A DNA stretch of 64,000 nt from Microbotryomycetes sp. JL201 (Eukaryota; Basidiomycota; Microbotryomycetes): NCBI GenBank assembly GCA_033819885.1, contig JAQYUZ010000004.1:512928-576927 (forward strand). Reading direction: 5' to 3'. Each line of letters begins with the position of its first letter. Within the stretch, counting starts at the first letter, position 1. Shown here one piece after another: positions 754 to 64,000 of the stretch. The notes under the pieces were generated by a model, which ran no database searches, was not told the DNA's origin, and worked only from the letters and a program-made list of their open reading frames with translations. Position numbers and translations under genes: made by a program.

Positions 754-2272
754 ATGGCGCCGCGTTCTCGGTCGAGCTCGAGAAGGAGAGGTGACGCGAA
801 GCCTCAGGACAGCCGGAATCTGTCGGTCCCCGGACACTACGACCGGACGGTTCGTGATTGAGGTTTCGACCAAAACCCGGCTGTGTGCTGACAGTCTTCC
901 TGCCTCAGCAGTCCGCTTTGATATCGAGATCTTTATCTCAAGAAGATCTATCAGTGGCTGCGAATGAAAACCACTCCGAGATTTGGTTGCCCCTCACCAA
1001 GCTTAAGGAGCAGGATGAACGCAATCGTCAGGCTTCGAATCATAGGGCAGTCCTCGCGTACGAGGCGGTTCTCACTGCTCAATTTCGCGCTCGAGAGCTG
1101 AATAATCAACAGAGAATTTCTAGTGCGTCATATCGGAGGCGGAATTTCAAGTCGAGGCGAAGGCACTGATGCCCACCCCCTTCCACAGAGCAAGAATATA
1201 AGGAGGCGCTCGACCTTCTTGTAAGGCTCTCTCATGAGCTCGCAGACATGATCCGATTGGCTGTGCAACGGAGCTTTCAAGAAGGATCTGGGCAAAAGTT
1301 GACTAAGTTCTGGCGAGACGTCGCACGCCACGATACTAGTGTGAGTCTTTCGGAATATTCACAGAACCCAGGACCACGAATATAAGCCAACCTTCCCCTA
1401 TGTTTCCAGGCGGTCCGGCTCCTGCACCAGGACTCGAATCTCGCCTTGCCTGCCGAGCGAGTTAGAGATCTGCAAGACATCTGGCTGCCGTTGATCCTAC
1501 ACGACGAGATGCCAGGCATCGATAGACTTGCTCAAAATATTCAGCACTGCGCGGAAGCCTTGCACAACGGTAAATCCGTGAATTGGGAAAAAATGTCACA
1601 TTGCTGACGATCACCCTCCAGACGCCTTTGATTTTTCAACTCGCAACACGCTTATTTCTAAGCTTCAGAAAGAGCGTGATCTCTGGGCCAATGGTATCAG
1701 GGAGTTTTGTCCGCGAGAAGAGTCATTCTGGCAGCGGCTGTCGAACGACGAGCCCGAGGCGAGTGCAGTCTCTGGAACTTGACCTGCACCAGCTCACAAC
1801 TTCGTGACAGGCTGTGGCAATGTTTCGAGCTGCAGTGCTTGGAGCTCAGAATGCACACAACAATCAGCGAGCCTCGAGACTGTTCCAGGCGCCTCCACCG
1901 CTTCCCAAAGATGATGGATATGTGCCGAGAGCACGTGTGAGTCCCGGTTGGCGAACATGCAGTGATTGAATGCAATGGCTTAGCTTATTCCTTCCTTTGC
2001 CCAGTCCCCGGGGATGGCCATCAATCCCGGAGCCCTACTTCATCAGTCGCAGCACCCACCGCGCATGTCCTCGTTCAATACAGACGTCTCCCTTCCGCTT
2101 CGTGGGCGGCTCGTACACCGAGAAATTGAAAACGCTCACAAATCGCGTCGCAACTCATCAGTAAGTCATAGCAAGCAGGTATCAGGAGCTTCTTGTTTTG
2201 ATTAACACATCACTCGACCAGTCTGATCACGATCAATACCGAGATGTACACGAAAGAAACCTGTTCGGCTAG
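754..2272 (+). CDS. Unknown protein, paralogue 1 of a tandem trio
   Basis: I do not recognise this protein. The model has eight exons: 754-849, 909-1122, 1189-1340, 1410-1569, 1622-1762, 1836-1936, 2005-2160, 2222-2272, giving 356 residues. It opens with an Arg/Ser-rich stretch. Two copies of a helical unit follow, each starting with a W-x-P-L motif (EIWLPL, then DIWLPL) and ending near an F-W pair (KFWRDV, then SFWQRL). The intron inside each unit is phase 1 and the intron closing the first unit is phase 0. The protein ends in a separate 17-codon exon, S-D-H-D-Q-Y-R-D-V-H-E-R-N-L-F-G. The next gene shares the two units and that terminal exon, so they are duplicates. No signal peptide or membrane segment is seen. 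The acceptor of the fifth intron (1835) is the least certain splice. Confidence 0.65.
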
Positions 2273-2511
2273 TGTCTGGCCTGTTGACAGTCCCCGCTCT
2301 TCCTGTGTATTCTATCTAGAGATTTTGTCCGAAGCCATAAACTCTTATTTTATCTCAAATGATGACTGATGGCCGAGTGAGCAGGATCGCAGCTGGTACG
2401 CAGTAAGATTTTCGTGCGGTGCAGCTCTAAACTCCTCGAAATTGATCCCGCGGAGTTTGGCATACCTCGCCAGAAGCAGGCTCAGCACTTTGGCTTGAGC
2501 CATTCAAAGCC

Positions 2512-4290
2512 ATGTCGACTCTCCACACGAGCGGTCGCAGGAAATCGCATCACTACCACCATGTGAACCCGCTTAGCTCCCATCCTACTTTTCGGGTAGG
2601 GTTTCTCTCCCTCCGTATCGCAGAGGCAGTCGAGCAACAGCACGAAACGAACAGGGGCAGGAGTCGTGAGGGCGAAAAGCCGTCACATGGCCTCATCACT
2701 GGGCATCATCACCTTGTATCAGAGCGAAATCATAGCGCAGGCGAGGCTTTCCACAAGAGCGACAAAGTAGAGTCCAGCTGAGTGGAACTGTTGAGTTGTC
2801 TTGAAACTGAGCACGTAACCACACAGGGCATTTCGCGATTGAATCAACTCAGGAAGGACGAACAAGAGGTTTGGCGTCCGCTCGAGCGGTGGCGCATGCC
2901 CATGGTTGAGGAATACGTCACCTTGTGCATGGTCTTGTCGATAGCAGAGAACGAGCTCCATGCGCACATACTTGACGGTAAGACTGACCGCGCCATCAAT
3001 AATCAGCATAAAGCTGATGTACTTCCGCAGACAACAAGTGGCGTGTGCTATGTAGGGCAGCACTTGCGTACGCCATCGAGTACGCACAAGACATTCGTGA
3101 TCGTGTCCAATTGCCCGAGGGGATCAAGTGGGACGCTTACTGGCTCCTTGTCCAGAATGGAGATGAGAAGGCAAGTTCAGGTGCACAGAATGGCCCATCC
3201 TGCGGCCGGAACGTTCCCAACTGATATTGAGATTTTATGTGGGAAATAGTGCAGGCTATCGCTTCTCGATGCCGCTAACAGAGCTCCTAAGCCGCAGACA
3301 TTTGGTCCTCACTGGACCGATGACTACGAAACCGTTTGGGGGCCTCTTGCGAGCCGCAACGCTGTGCCGTCGCAGCTCATTGATACGTTGGACCAGTTTG
3401 CACTCGCCGAAACCACGACCATGGATGGCAAGTCGAGCTGCCCTTCGTCAGAAGTGGACTGTGCCAACTGTTGACCTCTTCCAAACAGCTACTGTGCAGC
3501 GCAGAAGGACATTCGAGCTACAAGACGCGCTTCATGATCTTGCGGAAAAGATTATCTCCCATGTAGACATGGCATTCAAGACTCGACCCGTATTCTGGAA
3601 GGCCGTCAGAGGAAATAAAGCCCAAGTTAGTGGTGAGCACGAACGGCGCGCTGTCTTCTTGCTGACAGCGATTCATCAGGCTGTCAATGAGATTGTTCGA
3701 GCCTCGATCAAAGCGTGCGGTCACCCGCCGCAGTCGCCCCGGTTCGTCAAAGAGGATCAGGCTGTCGACTTGAGTCGAGTTTCGCCAAGGAGCAAGCCTG
3801 ATAAGGAAAACAGGTCCAGCGCATCGCTCCATCAATTGCATCACGATGACGGAAAGTTCTCGGGCAATTACAGCGACCACGAGATCGCTCAGGCGCGGGA
3901 ACGACAAACTTCGAGCGCGCCAACCTCGCCGTCTGTGTTGGACGACGACTTTGGTATGCATTTTACGCAACCCCGCGGAAGCGTGCGACTGGACCCGCGC
4001 CAGTCAATAGTAGACCGTCTTACTCCTGCGAGCCTCCCTCACCTCACACAAAATGCCACTGCTCGGGGTTTCTCTACTAGACTCGGCGACGCCACTCGGT
4101 CCCACAAGCCCGACAGACCGACATTCACACAGATTAACTGGTCCTCTAGCGCGCGAAGAGCTCACGACATGACTGCGGTGAGTTTATCAATGAACTGACA
4201 CTGTTCTCAGAATTCTGACTTCCCGCTTCGTATTTGTAGCCTGACTCCTCAGCTTACAAAGACTCGCACGAAGCAGACTTGTTTGAATAG
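2512..4290 (+). CDS. Unknown protein, paralogue 2 of a tandem trio
   Basis: Function unknown. Proposed exons are 2512-2766, 2827-2977, 3031-3170, 3298-3427, 3489-4177 and 4240-4290, about 471 residues. It repeats the architecture of its left neighbour: a basic N-terminus, a first W-x-P-L unit (EVWRPL), a second one (TVWGPL) closing with V-F-W-K-A-V, a long polar low-complexity region, and a separate 17-codon last exon P-D-S-S-A-Y-K-D-S-H-E-A-D-L-F-E matching the neighbour's tail. Unit-internal introns are phase 1 and the unit-closing intron is phase 0, as in paralogue 1. Two introns need GC-AG donors (GCAAGT at 3171 and 3428). The second is well supported by frame; the first spans 127 nt and is weaker. 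An in-frame 54-nt intron at 3626-3679 is also possible. Confidence 0.6.
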
Positions 4291-4424
4291 CTTCCTTGTA
4301 AATTGATCTCATCACATTTGTCATGCCTGTATATCGCCCTGGGGTTTGTGCTTTGAGATAGACAATCTTTGATGCAATACCGACCTGTCTTCTGGAGGGC
4401 AAGCTCAGCTGCAGGCTACATATT

Positions 4425-5885
4425 ATGGAAGCCGGACCTGCACTGCGTCCGCCCCATTTGGTGCGAAAGTGGCTGCGCAGAAGAGTCCGAGGATCCGAGG
4501 ACTTGGAAGAAGGCCACTGCCCCAATATAAGAAGGCCAGGGCGGTGGCCTTCTTTCTCTTTCCTTCTGTTTCAGACCGCATCAATATGCCACAAATCAGG
4601 TAGAAAACAGTTGATCAAGAGACTCTGGCTAAGCTCGATCCGCATGGATCTGCCACGAGCTTACAAGTATGAATCCCGAACTATTGACTCCTGACTCGTA
4701 GCGGCGAAAGGCCAGTGCTGACTTTTGTTGAGCAGAATAACGGCTTGACGTATTTCAAGACTCCGAGCATCATCACCGAAGATTTCAGAGTCTTGTGGCA
4801 ACCGCTGAAACTCGCGATGGGTCACAAGCCTGTGCACGAGTGGGACATGTTTGTAACGCTGAGCGCCCGTCTCGACTTGGGGCGACAGCTCGGGTTATGG
4901 CAGGGTCAAGGTGAGTGATTCGTGTCAGCAGGAATGCATTTCTGACCACGCTGCCGTAGAATTAGGCTGGGATCGAGCTTGCGACAACCTATGCGATTTC
5001 CTGCACGATCTCGCGAATTCGATCCGTCTTGAGCTTGACGCTCGCCTGAAAGCGATCAATCGTCCTGTAGCGGCATTCATGGAGTCGATAAACATTGCAA
5101 AATCCGAAAGGCGGACCATCCTCGGCGCCGTCGTTACGCGCGACCTTGCTAGCCTCCGCGAGGCGTACGTGAGAGTTGCCGGTTGGTGGAAAATGGACTT
5201 TTACCAGGTCATCCAGCATCTTGAAGGCAAAGGTGTCTTGCCAAAAGCGATCGTCAATCAAATCAAAATCTGCCGTACGGCGGACATCATGAAATCTTCT
5301 GACGGGCCAATGCCGAATGACGTAAATTACGACATATTAAATCTTCAACGCTCGTACAGTGCTAGCTACAAGATCCACATGTTTGCGCAGGAGGTGGTGG
5401 CAGCCCTGACCAGAGCAAAGGGTTTTGATGATGAAAACTTCTGGAGTGGGCTCCGTGCGCGGCGATCCCAGGTGAGCTGAGAGAAGCGTAGATGCAGAAC
5501 CACTTTGCTGACATCCCCTTTCAAGGCCATTGAGGCGCTGGTGCAGGCGGCGAAGACAGTCGCAGCTTCAACTGAGCACGACTTGGTGCATCGTGTCCGG
5601 ACTCGAGCGGCTGGCGCGCGTCCTCCTGTTGTCTTTGCGCCTTCGGCGTCGAATGCAGCACAAGCTGTGGCCAAGTCACACCTCCGTAACAGCGAAGGTC
5701 CATTATCGACAGTGCATTCGGCTCCGAATCTGAGGATAAGCTTCTCGAACGGTTTCGTGTTGCCTCCTCTCGAGCTGCCGACGTCTCCAACCCGCAGCTC
5801 AACCTGGCCTGAGCAACAGAGCCAAACTCGTAATCCACGACGACACGGCATGAATGTCGGGCAGATGCTGGGCTGCGGACCGTGA
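4425..5885 (+). CDS. Unknown protein, paralogue 3 of a tandem trio
   Basis: Function unknown. Exons are 4425 (or 4644)-4666, 4702-4910, 4960-5471 and 5526-5885, giving 440 or 367 residues depending on which in-frame ATG starts the protein. The first unit has the family motif as V-L-W-Q-P-L, followed by a phase-1 intron and a helix with N-L-C-D-F-L-H-D-L-A, which aligns with D-A-L-H-D-L-A in paralogue 2. The second unit is degenerate (G-W-W-K-M-D-F-Y) but still ends with an N-F-W motif before a phase-0 intron. The conserved 17-residue tail exon of the other two copies is not evident; the frame simply ends at 5885. Copy 3 is therefore the most diverged, or its 3' end is mis-modelled. Confidence 0.55.
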
Positions 5886-6332: not shown

Positions 6333-9111
6333 ATGGCCGACGGCGGTCTGTTTGGGAGCAGCTCGAGCAGCGCCGTACCCGCCTCGCCACGGATCAGCTA
6401 CAGCTCGCACCAGAATCCGTCGGCAGACCGTGGACCGCAAGCTGCTCGGATCGCAGGCTCGTCAGGCCGACAATTGACACGCAGAATGTCTGGCTCGACG
6501 CCAGGCGCAAGCTTGCCCCAAAAGGTTCGCAACTCGTGGCTGAGCAGGCTCATCGGCTCAAACACGTCAAGTACGCCTCCACCAGTAACTCCGGGCAGCA
6601 GTGCGTTCCCGAGCAACCCGCTCCGCACACCGCGACCGTTCTACGACGCCAGAACGTATGATGGCCGGCCCGTATCGACCTTGGGACTGGTCAGAGACAT
6701 TCTCTTGCGACCGTTCATGCTGTTGTTTCGCAGAGGACCGCTGCTGCCCCTGGTCATGCTTTTGATGACGCTCGTGCTCATCCTCACGTACTCGACTCAT
6801 CCGTCCACGCAGTCCGTCAAGCGCAAGGTTCAAGGCGCCGTCGGACCGTACATCCCTCAGCGTGCCGCAGATGCCATCAGCTGGCGCAGCTCGCGGTGGA
6901 GCCAGCAACAGCCTTGGAAGGCCGGGAACGGCCTCGTTCCAGACCCTGACGAAGATGACTTGTCGGACCTGAGTGGACCAGGCAAGAAACCGACCAAGAT
7001 TACAGCTGAATCTGCCTCTCTGCCATCGCCGCGCAAAGATGGACGTTTGATTCTTGAACCAGGCAAGAAGCATCCTATCCCTGTGCTCATGGAACGGGCA
7101 AAAAAGGAGTGGGAGAGGCTCAAGGCGAGGCAGAGTAAGACGTTTGCTCAGGCAGTACGCGAGTACGAGCGTCGTTACGGCCGCAAACCACCGGAAGGTT
7201 TCGATCAGTGGTCAGTCCGACTCTTTTTTGATTCTGATTAGGCTCCACTCATCGATCGAGAGTGCAGGTACGCGTTTGCAAAAGCCCACAAGGTCTTGAT
7301 GATCGACGAGTTTGATATGATCGACAAGGATTTATTGTTATACCGAGCGTTTGCCCCGCCGACATTTCGAAAGCGCGTCAACCATCTCAAAGACACATTC
7401 GACACAATCTGGACGATCGAAGTCAACAAAGGCAAAATCGTTCGCGGGGGACAGCTCAAAGACCACGACCGAGCGAAAGGCGTTGAAAAGCTCATGGAAC
7501 GATTCCTCAAGCATTTGCCGGACCAAGTGCTTGTGTATAACGGCCACGACAATGCCAGGATAGCCATCGCCGCTGACGAGAGGGATCGACTTGAGACGCT
7601 CGCTCGCAAGGGAGAATGTAAGCGAGAACCATCTTGAACAGGAAGGGTGTCAAGCTGACGCAAGCTACATTCGACAGACGACACCGACTCGGAACCGCCG
7701 TTCGAGCCAAAGCTGAAAGGTCAAGAGCCGCACTGGGGCATGCCTGTCTTTTGTCCGCCAGGCTCGGCCGTGCGCGAGCCCACGTTTGATTACGGCTGGG
7801 CATCCATGGAATCCACTGGTCTTGAGATGCCCGACGTGGAGGAGGGCACTATCGGCTCGCTTGTCGACAATTTCAAGTCGTACATGAATATTTGCGAAAA
7901 CCCGCAGTATCGTCATTTCCACTGCACCTCGTCGTGGGTGTACCAACACCATCCTACGCCCGTACTGCCACTGATCACGCCAGGCGTGCAAGCGACTCTG
8001 GCCGACATTCACGGCCTGATTATTGAGCAATTCGACCTCGACAATCAGCACGACCCAACTTGGGAGGAGCGCGCGTTCACGTCCTTGCAATGGCGTGGTC
8101 AAACAAGTGGACCTTTGTGGGAAAAGGTCGTGCCCTGGCGATCGACCCAACGCGCTCGCTTGCATTTGTTGTCCCACCAAGAATCTGGCTCGCGCACGAT
8201 TGTCTTGACAGACGGTAACGACGTCATGAGAACGGAAGAGGTTCCGAACTATAGGCTCAACCCGTTGTTTTTGGACGCGGGCATGGTCGGACCGGCCGTG
8301 CAATGCGTCAAAGAAGACGGCACTTGCGACGAAATGGAACGAGTGTTTCAAGGGTACGACAAGCGGATTAGCTTTGATCGCGCTTCATTGTACAAATATG
8401 TTCTCGGTCAGTACTGTTCTGCCGCTGCACAATGACGTCTCAATGGCTGACTGCCAGCGCGACAGACATTGACGGCAACAGTTGGTCTGGACGATTCCGG
8501 CGGTTGATGATGTCGAACGCGGCCGTAGTCAAGGCGACCATCTTTCCCGAGTTCTGGACGGTGAGCTGAGCTTCTTCTTTGCTGACAAGAGATCGGCGCT
8601 GACACTGAAGGTGTGGCTTGTAGGATTGGATCGTTCGTATGTCTACTGGCAGCGTTTCTGATATCGTTCCGAGAGCTGACGCGGACTTTGCGCAGCCTGG
8701 CTCCATTTTATTCCAATTCAAGTCGACTACAGCGACATGTGGGACGTCATGGCATTCTTCAGGGGCGGCTTGCAAGGCGAAGGCGCGCACGATGACCTCG
8801 GTCGACAAATTGCCGAAGCTGGCAAGGACTGGGTCAAGCAATGCTTCAGATGGGCAGACTTGGAGGCATATCAATTTAGGTCAGTGCGAGATTCGTGGTT
8901 GTGAGATTGATCTTAGCTGACATTCGTGATCGCTCAGGCTCAATCTCGAGTACGGCAGGCTGTACAACGATGAAAAGCTTCCCGGATCGAACGACTTTAC
9001 TGGAGATCCGTAAGTTGTATTGTTGTCTAATGAAGACCACTGCTCACCCACCGAACGTTGCTCGCGAACAGCTCTATCGAACCAAAATGGGACGGAACGA
9101 TCAAACTCTGA
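6333..9111 (+). CDS. CAP10-like type II membrane glycosyltransferase 1
   Basis: Eight exons (6333-7210, 7268-7617, 7678-8406, 8466-8560, 8624-8636, 8696-8879, 8938-9009, 9072-9111) encode 786 residues. A Ser/Pro-rich cytosolic tail precedes one hydrophobic anchor near residues 137-155, giving type II topology. The lumenal part from about residue 245 is a CAP10/POGLUT-like domain. It shows [17 protein letters not shown], then L-Q-W-R-G-Q-T-S-G with R-A-R-L, then [11 protein letters not shown], and finally [12 protein letters not shown]. The family includes Cryptococcus Cap10 (capsule) and xylosyl/glucosyltransferases of the Golgi and ER; the donor sugar cannot be read from sequence. A 13-nt internal exon (8624-8636) is required to keep the frame. 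A second homologue starts at 21241. Confidence 0.9.
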
Positions 9112-15371: not shown

Positions 15372-18300
15372 TCAAACGGACGTTTTTGACATGTCTACGT
15401 GCGAAAAGCGTGCAGAATAGTGCACATGTCAGGCAAAGCGATTCCTAGAAAACAACTGAACCAACTTACAATAAGACAACAAGTTGATCTGATCTTTGTG
15501 CAACGTCGTTCGACCGACCAAGTCGTACACTTTTTCTTGGTCACGCAAGACGCTATGAGCGTCAACGAGGCATTGCACGCTCGCTCGACGCAATTCAGAG
15601 TGCGAGTCGTTAAGTCCCTGAAATACGTCGACATCGGTCAGACGTAGCACAGGTTAGGTTGGAGATGAGCGGAAACTGACCCTCTTGACGAGCTCTGCCC
15701 TCTTTGGCAACTCATCCTCGAGTATCTCTTTCGGCAACTTTGCAAACAGCCTGCCGATCAATCTCAAACCCAAAGCGAAAGCACGTGCGATCTCAGGTGT
15801 GATGTGACCGTCATTCTTGAAATCGAGGTACTGGACCAATGCGGATGATAAGAGTCCAAGCGTCAAAAGAGGTTCGGACCGGTCGGTTACAGTTCTGCCA
15901 ATTTCCTCAGTTGCTGCAACGATCTGCCGAGGGATAGGTCGATCAGCAATCAAGTGAGTAGACTGGCATCACCCAAACGCTCACCGAACGGGATGAATCC
16001 TCGCGCAAGGAGAGCAGCAGCTCGAACAGGGTAGTCTCTTCACCTGCAAGACAAGGCAATTGATGCTCGACGAGGCTAGCAAGGAGTCTGAGAGCCGTTT
16101 CATGAGTCGTGGGGTACTGCGAGACCAAGCGCAGGTCAGTCGTCAGACTTGTTCAAGATCCGCGCTCGCTCACATCTCCCGTTTTCTTCGAGAGCATCTC
16201 TGTCAATGCTGCAAATGCTTTGGCGAATGTTTTGTCTCGGGTCCAAAAGTTTGCGTCTGACTCTTCTTGCCGTCTTTGAGACGGTGACGCTTCACTCTCG
16301 TTTTCATCGTCTTCGACAACCGGATATCTTCGCGACAGGTCCATGAGCTGTTCGAGCTCTTCGGCAGAGACGGTCTGACTCATGAGGCGCGCGATCAAAC
16401 CGTCTGCATTTTGTGCGTCTGCGTTTGATTCTGCCGCTTGACCTTGTGTTCGCACTATCAGTGGATAATAGCATCGATCGACGCGTGAAGCTCACTCTGA
16501 CTTTTGACTGTCCACCAGTCGCTGCCTTTGTCCGACAGGCCAAAGGTCTCGACATTTCTTCCATCCGGACTATCATTAAACACGTCAGATTGCCGGACAG
16601 AGGCGACATGCCTCGTTGCAACCGCTGGAGTCGAAAGCTGACTGGCGGGTATGGGTCCATGTTCTGTATTCGCAAGCGTTCCTACATGGAGGTCATGATG
16701 AGACTGAGAGGAGCCGTCCGGTGACCTGTGAAGACGATGCGCGCCGATGGCGACGGGTATGTGAGACGTTCTTCGGCTCGCTGTCGGAGACGAAGGCGAA
16801 GATTGCAAATGAGGCCGTTCCTGTTTGAACAAGGGCGTGGATGCCGACGAGCTCGGAGTTGCTTGTGTATTGCGTGGAGATGAGCTTGTAGCTCGTTCTG
16901 ACGACGGAGTCGATACCGTCGCTGCAGCGACATCTTTGATGGTGTCTGCAGCTGCGTGAGCAGCCAGTTGGGCTTCCATTTCTTGCTCCTTCTGAGCCTT
17001 TTCTCGCTTCGCCTGCAACATCATCTCACGAACACTCGGACGAGTCGTCTTGACCGGTGCAGATGCACTCTGTGCTCTGGACACTGCCGGCTTCGGATCG
17101 TTGGCTGATGTCGAGCTCGATTGCTTGCGAGGATCGCTCTTGTCTAGCTGTTTGCGACTTGTCGAGTCGAGCGAGCAAGAAATCTTGTCTGCCAATCTTG
17201 ACCAAATATCTTGGACGAGCCAAAACGTCGTCCGGCTCGTCTCTTTGACGCCGCTATTGGGGTCCGACAGGCCACGCTTGAGCATCTGTTCGATCTCGCC
17301 CAGCCCGCCTGAAGTCTCAATGGCGTGCTGACTGTGTTCGCCGTGGACCTTGACGAGCGTTTGCAAGTGTGCGGCGGCGTATTGGCGGGCAGAAGCGTTC
17401 TTGTCCTGCATGACTAACGCGAGCTGCTGTATCGTTTGGAAATGGTACCTCGAGTTGGTGATCAGGGACGTGACAGTCGCTTGTGAAGCAGTCGCAACGA
17501 TCTTTTTCGTCTGTCCTGCCATGCCCAGACAGTGGCAGAGAAAAGGCTCAAGAAAGTGGTGGTCCAATGCAGAACCAAAAGCGTCCGACAGCTCGGCCAT
17601 GAGTTGAAGTGCAGAAATGGCCAAGGTCGTCCTGAGCGAGGACGACTGATGAAGACGATCAAGTCAGTCCGGATTCCAACAGAGCCGTTGCTCCACAGAG
17701 CTCACCGTCTTGATCATGCCCTCTTCTACTAAGCGCAAATCGGCCAGGAAGGCGTCCTTGAACTGCGTTGGAGCGCCGCCTTTGATCAAGCCTCGCAACC
17801 GAGCTACACTCTTGTCTCGTGAGACCCAGTTGTGCTCCGTTTCTTTGCCTTCGAAGCAAGGTCTCATCTGCTCGATTTCTGAATGTAGATCTCGCTCGTT
17901 TGCAACGTATACAGGACCTATTTCTGCCGGTTGCTGATGGACGGCGGCAGGATCTGTCGGGAATGCGGCCGCAGGAAGGTTTGCAACGAGTGACGCGGGA
18001 GACGGCGGCCGTGGTCGAGGGCGTGCGTCCTGGGAGCTGGTATCTTGTACAGTACTGTTCATCTCATTGTCTGCGCTCAGCGTCTGTTCGCCACCGCCGA
18101 GAACGGCGGCCAAGATCGTATCTTGGAGTTTTTTGTTGACTTCTAACTTGAGCATTAGCTTTTTCAGGTCTGCTCTTGCTGCAGCAGACACTGTTGGCGC
18201 GCTAAAGATTGATATAGTTGAGGATAAAGCGAGAGAGCGTACAGTCGGATCCGGGTCGCCGAGCAGCGGCAGCAACAAGGGCGTGAATGGTCGCAAGGGC

Positions 18301-19105
18301 GTGATAAGGCTGCCATCCTCGCTCTGCCTGATTGTCACAAGAAACAATATAGCCTGGAGACTCGGACTGTGAGCTGAGCGTACGAGTATGTGCGAGGTGG
18401 CGAGCGAACGGCTGACCTGTTCGCGCGCTTTAGCGTTCTTGCTCTGGAACGCATGCTCCTGAATCCGTTGCTCCACGAGTTGCCAGGACGTATCTTTGAG
18501 CTGTTGATGTGGCGCCGGCGGTGCGAGCTTGGCCGTCAATAGCAGACTGGCCCTCGCTGCGGCTACGATAGCTTCTCTGGCTGCGTCCCTTACGCCCTGT
18601 TTCGAGTCTGCTAGCTTTTCTGTTGGTAGTAAGGTAGCGAGAGTCGATTTGAACTCGTGGTCGAGCCTGGCGGCGTGGTGGACCGAGCTCGGCGGCCTGT
18701 GCTCGCCATGCGTGCCGTCGCCCGTGCCAACGTCGACATGCGCAGCGCGACTGAACAAGTGAGGTAGTGTTTGAAGTGCAGCGGATACGACGTGTTGGTT
18801 GTTGTGGCGCAGGTGCGGCTTGACGAGTTGACTGAGTCGGTCGAGGTCCTCGTCGGTGAGCGCCTGCACGTGAGACGTCGGTCACGGCCAGCGTCTCGGC
18901 CTTTGAAGCAACAACGTACCTGCTGCCTGTCGCCAAGCAAGTCGCGGATGGCGTGCAAACCCTGTATTCGCCGCTCGTTGTCTGCGAGCGGATCGGAGTG
19001 GTAAGAGTGGAACAGCAGTGAGCATGCATCGTATACAAAGTCAGGGGCAAGGTCAGAGCCCTCACCTTGGGACGCCAACTGCTGCTCGAGGCTGGCGAGG
19101 TCCAT
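15372..19105 (-). CDS. CLASP-family microtubule-binding protein (Stu1-like)
   Basis: Nine exons (19105-18920, 18863-18417, 18353-17706, 17645-16496, 16454-16174, 16116-15985, 15923-15681, 15617-15470, 15394-15372) give 1085 residues. N-terminal HEAT/TOG repeats come first (D-L-D-R-L-S-Q-L-V-K-P-H-L-R and following). A central CLASP_N TOG domain begins near S-S-L-R-T-T-L-A-I-S-A-L-Q-L. A long Ser/Pro/Arg-rich linker with T-R-P-S-V-R-E-M-M follows, then a C-terminal HEAT domain containing H-S-E-L-R-R-A-S-V-Q-C-L-V-D-A-H. CLASPs bind tubulin through TOG domains, rescue microtubules at plus ends and support spindle and kinetochore function. The final exon is 23 nt and was placed because CLASPs end in a short Tyr-rich tail. 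The gene diverges from ARG8 across 114 bp. Confidence 0.88.
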
Positions 19106-19219
19106 TGTCCGCGCCCGTGTGGTCGATGCGAGGTCACGTGCTCGCACGAGGCAGAGCAGAGCCGCGCCCGCCAAACCCGCAAAAGCGCAAGTTTGACTCC
19201 TCGAGTCGATAGCGCACGA

Positions 19220-20975
<1,756 letters not shown>

Positions 20976-63926: not shown

Positions 63927-64000
<74 letters not shown>
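63927..64000. repeat. Homopolymer run of 74 G
   Basis: An uninterrupted G run reaches the end of the window. Runs of this length are not found elsewhere here and are a known artefact of base calling or of assembly at read ends. A genuine G-tract is possible but less likely. It is not a telomere: fungal telomeres are short mixed repeats, typically TTAGGG-like. Confidence 0.9.

Follow-up and report, generated by a model that had tools for sequence, protein, structure and literature searches.

A 64,000-nucleotide stretch of contig JAQYUZ010000004.1 (hereafter the window) from Microbotryomycetes sp. JL201, an unclassified member of the Microbotryomycetes in the Pucciniomycotina, carries three consecutive plus-strand genes that an original prediction, made from the letters alone, had taken for a tandem trio of paralogues. 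We assembled the gene models manually from the genomic letters; every intron had to be GT or GC...AG, and the frame had to stay open. Gene 1 (754-2272) has eight exons (754-849, 909-1122, 1189-1340, 1410-1569, 1622-1758, 1811-1936, 2005-2160 and 2222-2272) and encodes 363 aa. Gene 2 (2512-4290) has seven (2512-2766, 2827-2977, 3031-3170, 3250-3427, 3489-3625, 3680-4177 and 4240-4290) and encodes 469 aa, and gene 3 (4644-5885) has four (4644-4666, 4702-4910, 4960-5471 and 5526-5885) and encodes 367 aa. The first exon of gene 3 is uncertain: 4586-4599 would be just as open as 4644-4666, and the latter implies an intron of 35 nt, the remaining 15 introns of the trio measuring 49-79 nt.

When spliced, the frames are open in all three genes, over 1199 codons in total. 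A codon-usage log-odds score, with five stretches of the window as training data, gave +27 bits in frame for gene 1 and +59 bits for gene 2, with the other five frames negative in each case; gene 3 scored +25 bits in frame, every other frame being lower and one antisense frame reaching +9.9. The last exon of gene 3 alone scored -4.6, still the best among its three forward frames. GC donors occur in three of the 16 introns, at 1759 (GCGAGT), 3171 (GCAAGT) and 3428 (GCAAGT), and the frame seems to force them; in gene 1, a GT donor at 1763 was rejected because it breaks the frame, and the GC donor at 1759 was used. All six introns of our model of the GT90/CAP10-like gene on the 3' side of the trio are GT-AG, and the frequency given for GC-AG introns in model organisms in PMC7072748 is below 1%. 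The need for three GC donors, the uncertain start of gene 3 and its negatively scoring last exon speak for the alternative that the models are wrong: open stretches that occur by chance, and motifs selected by eye. Furthermore, judging from protein searches, the deposited JL201 proteins seem to include no trio model of comparable length, and the deposited annotation appears either to lack the three genes or to model them differently. Nevertheless, we regard wrong models as very improbable given the long open reading across splice sites, the best codon usage in the chosen frame of every gene, and the shared intron phases and exon similarity described below.

Each gene contains two copies of a repeated unit. 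In genes 1 and 2, all four copies have the same layout: an A exon, which carries the motif W-x-P-L, is joined across a phase-1 intron to a B exon, which closes with F/Y-W-x-x-V/L and is itself followed by a phase-0 intron. Unit 1 of gene 1 (909-1340) consists of an A exon with EIWLPL, the phase-1 intron 1123-1188 and a B exon with FWRDV, after which the phase-0 intron follows; unit 2 (1410-1758) has DIWLPL in its A exon, the phase-1 intron 1570-1621 and FWQRL in its B exon, and is followed by a phase-0 GC-AG intron from 1759. In gene 2, unit 1 (2827-3170) has an A exon with EVWRPL, the phase-1 intron 2978-3030, a B exon with AYWLLV and a phase-0 GC-AG intron from 3171, and unit 2 (3250-3625) has an A exon with TVWGPL, a phase-1 GC-AG intron at 3428-3488, a B exon with VFWKAV and a phase-0 intron from 3626. 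Gene 3 keeps two of the four expected introns: unit 1 has its phase-1 intron and unit 2 is followed by its phase-0 intron, the two between being absent. Its unit 1 (4702-5108) opens with VLWQPL, contains the phase-1 intron 4911-4959 and has a B part in which F-M replaces F-W; its unit 2 (5151-5471) is intronless, has a degenerate W-x-P-L and closes with NFWSGL before the phase-0 intron. W-x-P-L is thus found in five of the six units, and the complete intron phases read 0,1,0,1,0,0,0 in gene 1, 0,1,0,1,0,0 in gene 2 and 2,1,0 in gene 3. The predicted pair of W-x-P-L units closing near F-W, and the predicted rule of phase 1 inside a unit and phase 0 between units, therefore describe genes 1 and 2 in full and gene 3 in part.

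The ends of the proteins showed a similar division. The last exons of gene 1 (2222-2272; YRDVHERNLFG) and gene 2 (4240-4290; YKDSHEADLFE) are both phase-0 exons of 51 nt, or 17 codons (16 aa and a stop), and share the pattern Y-[RK]-D-x-H-E-x-x-L-F with z 7.2, a value reached by 0/20000 shuffles; this common exon had been noticed beforehand, and gene 3 lacks it. A basic N-terminus had been claimed for all three copies and was found in genes 1 and 2 (net charge +4 over 30 aa), gene 3 having a net charge of 0 with its uncertain first exon. The pattern [FYILV]-W-x-x-[LVI], which was picked after the proteins were seen, occurs four times in gene 1 (reached by 1/5000 shuffles), four times in gene 2 (0/5000) and twice in gene 3 (matched by 339/5000). 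One MAFFT misalignment across 909-5471 superposes W-x-P-L heads on F-W-x-x-V heads.

At the level of whole proteins, the copies have little in common. Gene 2 is 21% and gene 3 22% identical to gene 1 in a MAFFT alignment, and BLASTP between the genes gave a best E of 0.005, for one pair only. Because these pairwise signals were so weak, we tested the exon sets jointly. The sum-of-pairs score exceeded that of shuffles with z 6.2 for the five A exons and z 7.1 for the six B exons, and 0/400 control sets reached the observed value in either case (maximum z 2.6 for A and 4.0 for B). The controls were pieces from other open reading frames (ORFs) of the contig, one per ORF, these ORFs being mechanical and not all genes; B controls came from a pool of 140 helix-prone, amphipathic pieces and A controls from one of 339 random pieces. 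An earlier control design with overlapping pieces and small pools was discarded as inflated (122/150 and 51/150 sets at z ≥ 6). When a hidden Markov model was built with one gene left out, the left-out genes 1, 2 and 3 ranked 4, 1 and 1 among 2876 sequences. For gene 3, single pairs of B parts stood out: unit 1 matched gene 2 unit 2 with z 5.5 and gene 1 unit 1 with z 4.0, and unit 2 matched gene 2 unit 2 with z 5.8. Taken together, these comparisons bear out the prediction of three tandem paralogues and indicate a real, old and very diverged tandem family, in which the kinship of gene 3 rests mostly on its B parts.

The original prediction further held that an internal duplication was followed by tandem gene duplication. 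Both the duplicated unit and the three paralogues stand; the exon scores leave the order of events undecided. Among B exons, the within-gene pairs were among the weakest (z 0.8, 0.6 and 0.35), which, together with the strong match between the second units of genes 2 and 3, fits an internal duplication as the earlier event. However, the match between gene 2 unit 2 and gene 3 unit 1 is about equally strong, and the closest pair of A exons is that of the two gene 1 units (z 3.5), so that the sequence data do not settle the order. The repeated intron layout within both genes 1 and 2 favours the predicted order, with the internal duplication as the first step.

We then looked for relatives of the trio. 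As the original prediction had supposed, no named domain was recognised: there was no Pfam family above its curated cut-off and no NCBIfam family match. The best Pfam resemblances, SGS (PF05002) and HH_signal (PF01085) on gene 1 only and FhuF (PF06276) on gene 3 only, had E 0.07-0.16, lay 10-11 bits under their curated cut-offs and were treated as chance. PDB sequence profiles gave chance-level matches only (E 0.8; E 0.2 and 1.6), and no PHROG fell under E 0.05 (best E 0.054). Searches of viral contigs with two short peptide patterns only gave 41 pattern matches, none of them confirmed, and those of prokaryotic contigs with one short peptide pattern only gave 16, again with none confirmed. Within its own genome, each trio protein matched only its own exons, and the gene 1 DNA had a single place. 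Since the copies do not find one another in this search, the family has at least three members. A profile trained on genes 1, 2 and 3 scored 212 at the place of gene 3 and 142 at that of gene 1; in its scan of the contig from 294 kb to the end no fourth copy stood out, the next score being 14.6, and the 20 kb upstream held no family member (best E 0.83). In the literature, we found no paper on strain JL201, and no such gene family was among the matches listed.

These searches bear on whether the trio could be the remnant of a captured mobile or viral element, for example of a Gag-like helical protein. Capsid-named entries do occur among the weak matches (6lnt at E 1.6; 8ere in Foldseek at E 9.1), at chance level, and no catalytic family was found. 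We consider such an origin hardly credible, as the trio has one genomic place by both DNA (gene 1) and protein, has many introns at shared places, matches no Pfam viral or element family and has no confirmed relative in viral contigs, as scanned with two short peptide patterns, or under E 0.05 in PHROG.

The broadest search covered 5.8 billion proteins. The gene 2 protein had no match at E ≤ 1 (6153 candidates), and the three-gene alignment, within which alone genes 1 and 3 entered this search, had none at E ≤ 10 (7995 candidates sharing most words). As a control, the GT90 neighbour found 274 proteins in the same collection; the best 120 of the 274 included its own JL201 copy, a protein 90% identical in strain JL221, and proteins 71-74% identical in Rhodotorula and Sporobolomyces, so that fungal proteomes are present in the collection searched. 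At the sensitivity available, then, the trio appears to be an orphan. The main alternative to novelty is homology detection failure, by which the trio would belong to an older, possibly widespread fungal family that changes too fast for word-based searches and would be neither lineage-specific nor a new domain. Given that the copies miss one another in searches of their own genome, orthologues equally distant would be missed as well. On the other hand, JL221, Rhodotorula and Sporobolomyces are in the collection and still gave no trio match, although the genes may be unannotated there. We judge this explanation possible, if on balance doubtful. Homology detection failure has been treated by Weisman et al. 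2020 (PMC7660931), where lineage-specific genes are described as occurring in essentially every lineage. The earlier labels 'lineage-specific' and 'fast evolving' stay unproven, because such failure would look identical, and a Ka/Ks test is not meaningful at the 21-22% identity that the other copies share with gene 1.

Lineage-restricted (orphan) tandem gene families occur in fungi, and no specific family was matched to the trio. The trio resembles them in that its members are adjacent, lie on the same strand, share a gene structure and have no relatives found; it differs in that its copies have diverged strongly and carry an internal duplication in which the intron phases recur. An exon architecture kept despite so low an identity, in a tandem array with no orthologue found, might also reflect diversification driven by conflict, be it self/non-self recognition or another kind (allorecognition, mating-linked or antiviral). 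This seems improbable to us: the neighbours look ordinary, with CLPTM1 and short-chain dehydrogenase (SDR) genes upstream and the GT90 gene downstream, and the trio has no Pfam match of such a kind.

We also examined fold and composition. Single-sequence AlphaFold2 (AF2) models were made of contiguous exon translations, all of them parts of gene 3, and, in keeping with the helical character foreseen in the original prediction, came out all-helical at low confidence, both for exon 3 (predicted local distance difference test, pLDDT, 47; predicted template modelling score, pTM, 0.29) and for unit 2 (pLDDT 54, pTM 0.40). The best Foldseek match of the gene 3 model had E 2.6, which means little at that model confidence. 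The fraction of S/P/G/Q/N/T was 0.39-0.48 in the tails vs 0.25-0.27 in the units. The units, richer in hydrophobic residues than the tails, had a hydrophobic fraction of 0.29-0.35; for the N-terminal segments of genes 1 and 2 the values were 0.18 and 0.20. By eye, the trio proteins showed neither a membrane segment nor anything resembling a signal peptide, which suggests that they are soluble and intracellular. The units are probably helical. The misalignment noted above makes it possible that every unit consists of two halves, with a phi-W-x-x-phi helix at the head of each half, an arrangement that the intron positions do not support. By analogy, the trio is like HEAT/TPR-like helical-repeat scaffolds in that its units are repeated and probably all-helical and no enzyme domain is recognised in them; unlike them, it has no Pfam repeat profile at E ≤ 10, and its unit is of about 100 residues with phi-W-x-x-phi segments.

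We propose, with a probability of roughly one half for the reading as a whole, that the trio arose in tandem from a two-unit ancestor and encodes non-enzymatic scaffolds or adaptors with a C-terminal docking motif. One ancestral gene would already have held two copies of a probably helical unit of about 100 residues, each copy with a phase-1 intron inside it and a phase-0 intron behind it, and its tandem duplication would have given the three protein-coding genes. We would guess that the two units, with a phi-W-x-x-phi helix at the start and at the end of each, form a binding module, that the Ser/Pro-rich tail is disordered, and that the ten residues Y-[RK]-D-x-H-E-x-x-L-F of copies 1 and 2 dock a partner; copy 3, without this motif, might have a different partner or regulation. 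The scaffold or adaptor role itself is a guess held with low confidence.

Several observations weigh against this proposal. The HMMER E-values of the left-out genes in the leave-one-out test were merely 1.3, 0.079 and 0.4. A leave-one-out scan of 283 kb of the contig (about 565 scan windows) varied by aligner, the scan windows outscoring genes 1, 2 and 3 numbering 0, 0 and 3 with globalpair, 9, 0 and 6 with genafpair, and 0, 10 and 103 with localpair. The starts of the exons that follow the units were not significantly similar (z 1.0, 78/500 shuffles). Furthermore, the confidence of the AF2 models is too low to bear out the expected two bundles. In a bolder version, the unit would be a helical domain not described before, about 100 residues long, in which phi-W-x-x-phi helices are paired; it would have been duplicated within one gene and then triplicated in tandem, would be confined to few Microbotryomycetes, and would be diverging through conflict or co-evolution with a partner, its intron frame remaining fixed. 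This version strikes us as unlikely. The trio is a clear case of intron phases and exon layout still revealing a shared ancestry when hardly any protein similarity is left. A series of orthologues from related yeasts, if obtainable, would test whether such orphan families arise de novo or through fast divergence.

The trio sits between a minus-strand SDR gene upstream (L009:8566-9312; Pfam adh_short), on which side the CLPTM1 gene also lies, and the GT90/CAP10-like gene (6333-9009) on its 3' side. The spliced model of the latter is 3'-incomplete at 773 aa, and the deposited JL201 protein OIV83_001064 has 786 aa; the two are 100% identical over residues 280-773, the part searched. A Pfam scan of exon 3 of this gene alone gave no family at E ≤ 0.001, and the GT90 name is based on the precomputed PF05686 of its protein matches. 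The relatives listed for it include Cryptococcus CAP1-related proteins. Further along the window lie a minus-strand CLASP-like gene (16458-18881; CLASP_N, E 1.7e-40) and, directly beyond it, a plus-strand class-III aminotransferase gene (19022-20074). The end of the window is the end of the contig, which terminates in a run of 74 G (63927-64000) that is probably an assembly or sequencing artefact and not a telomere.

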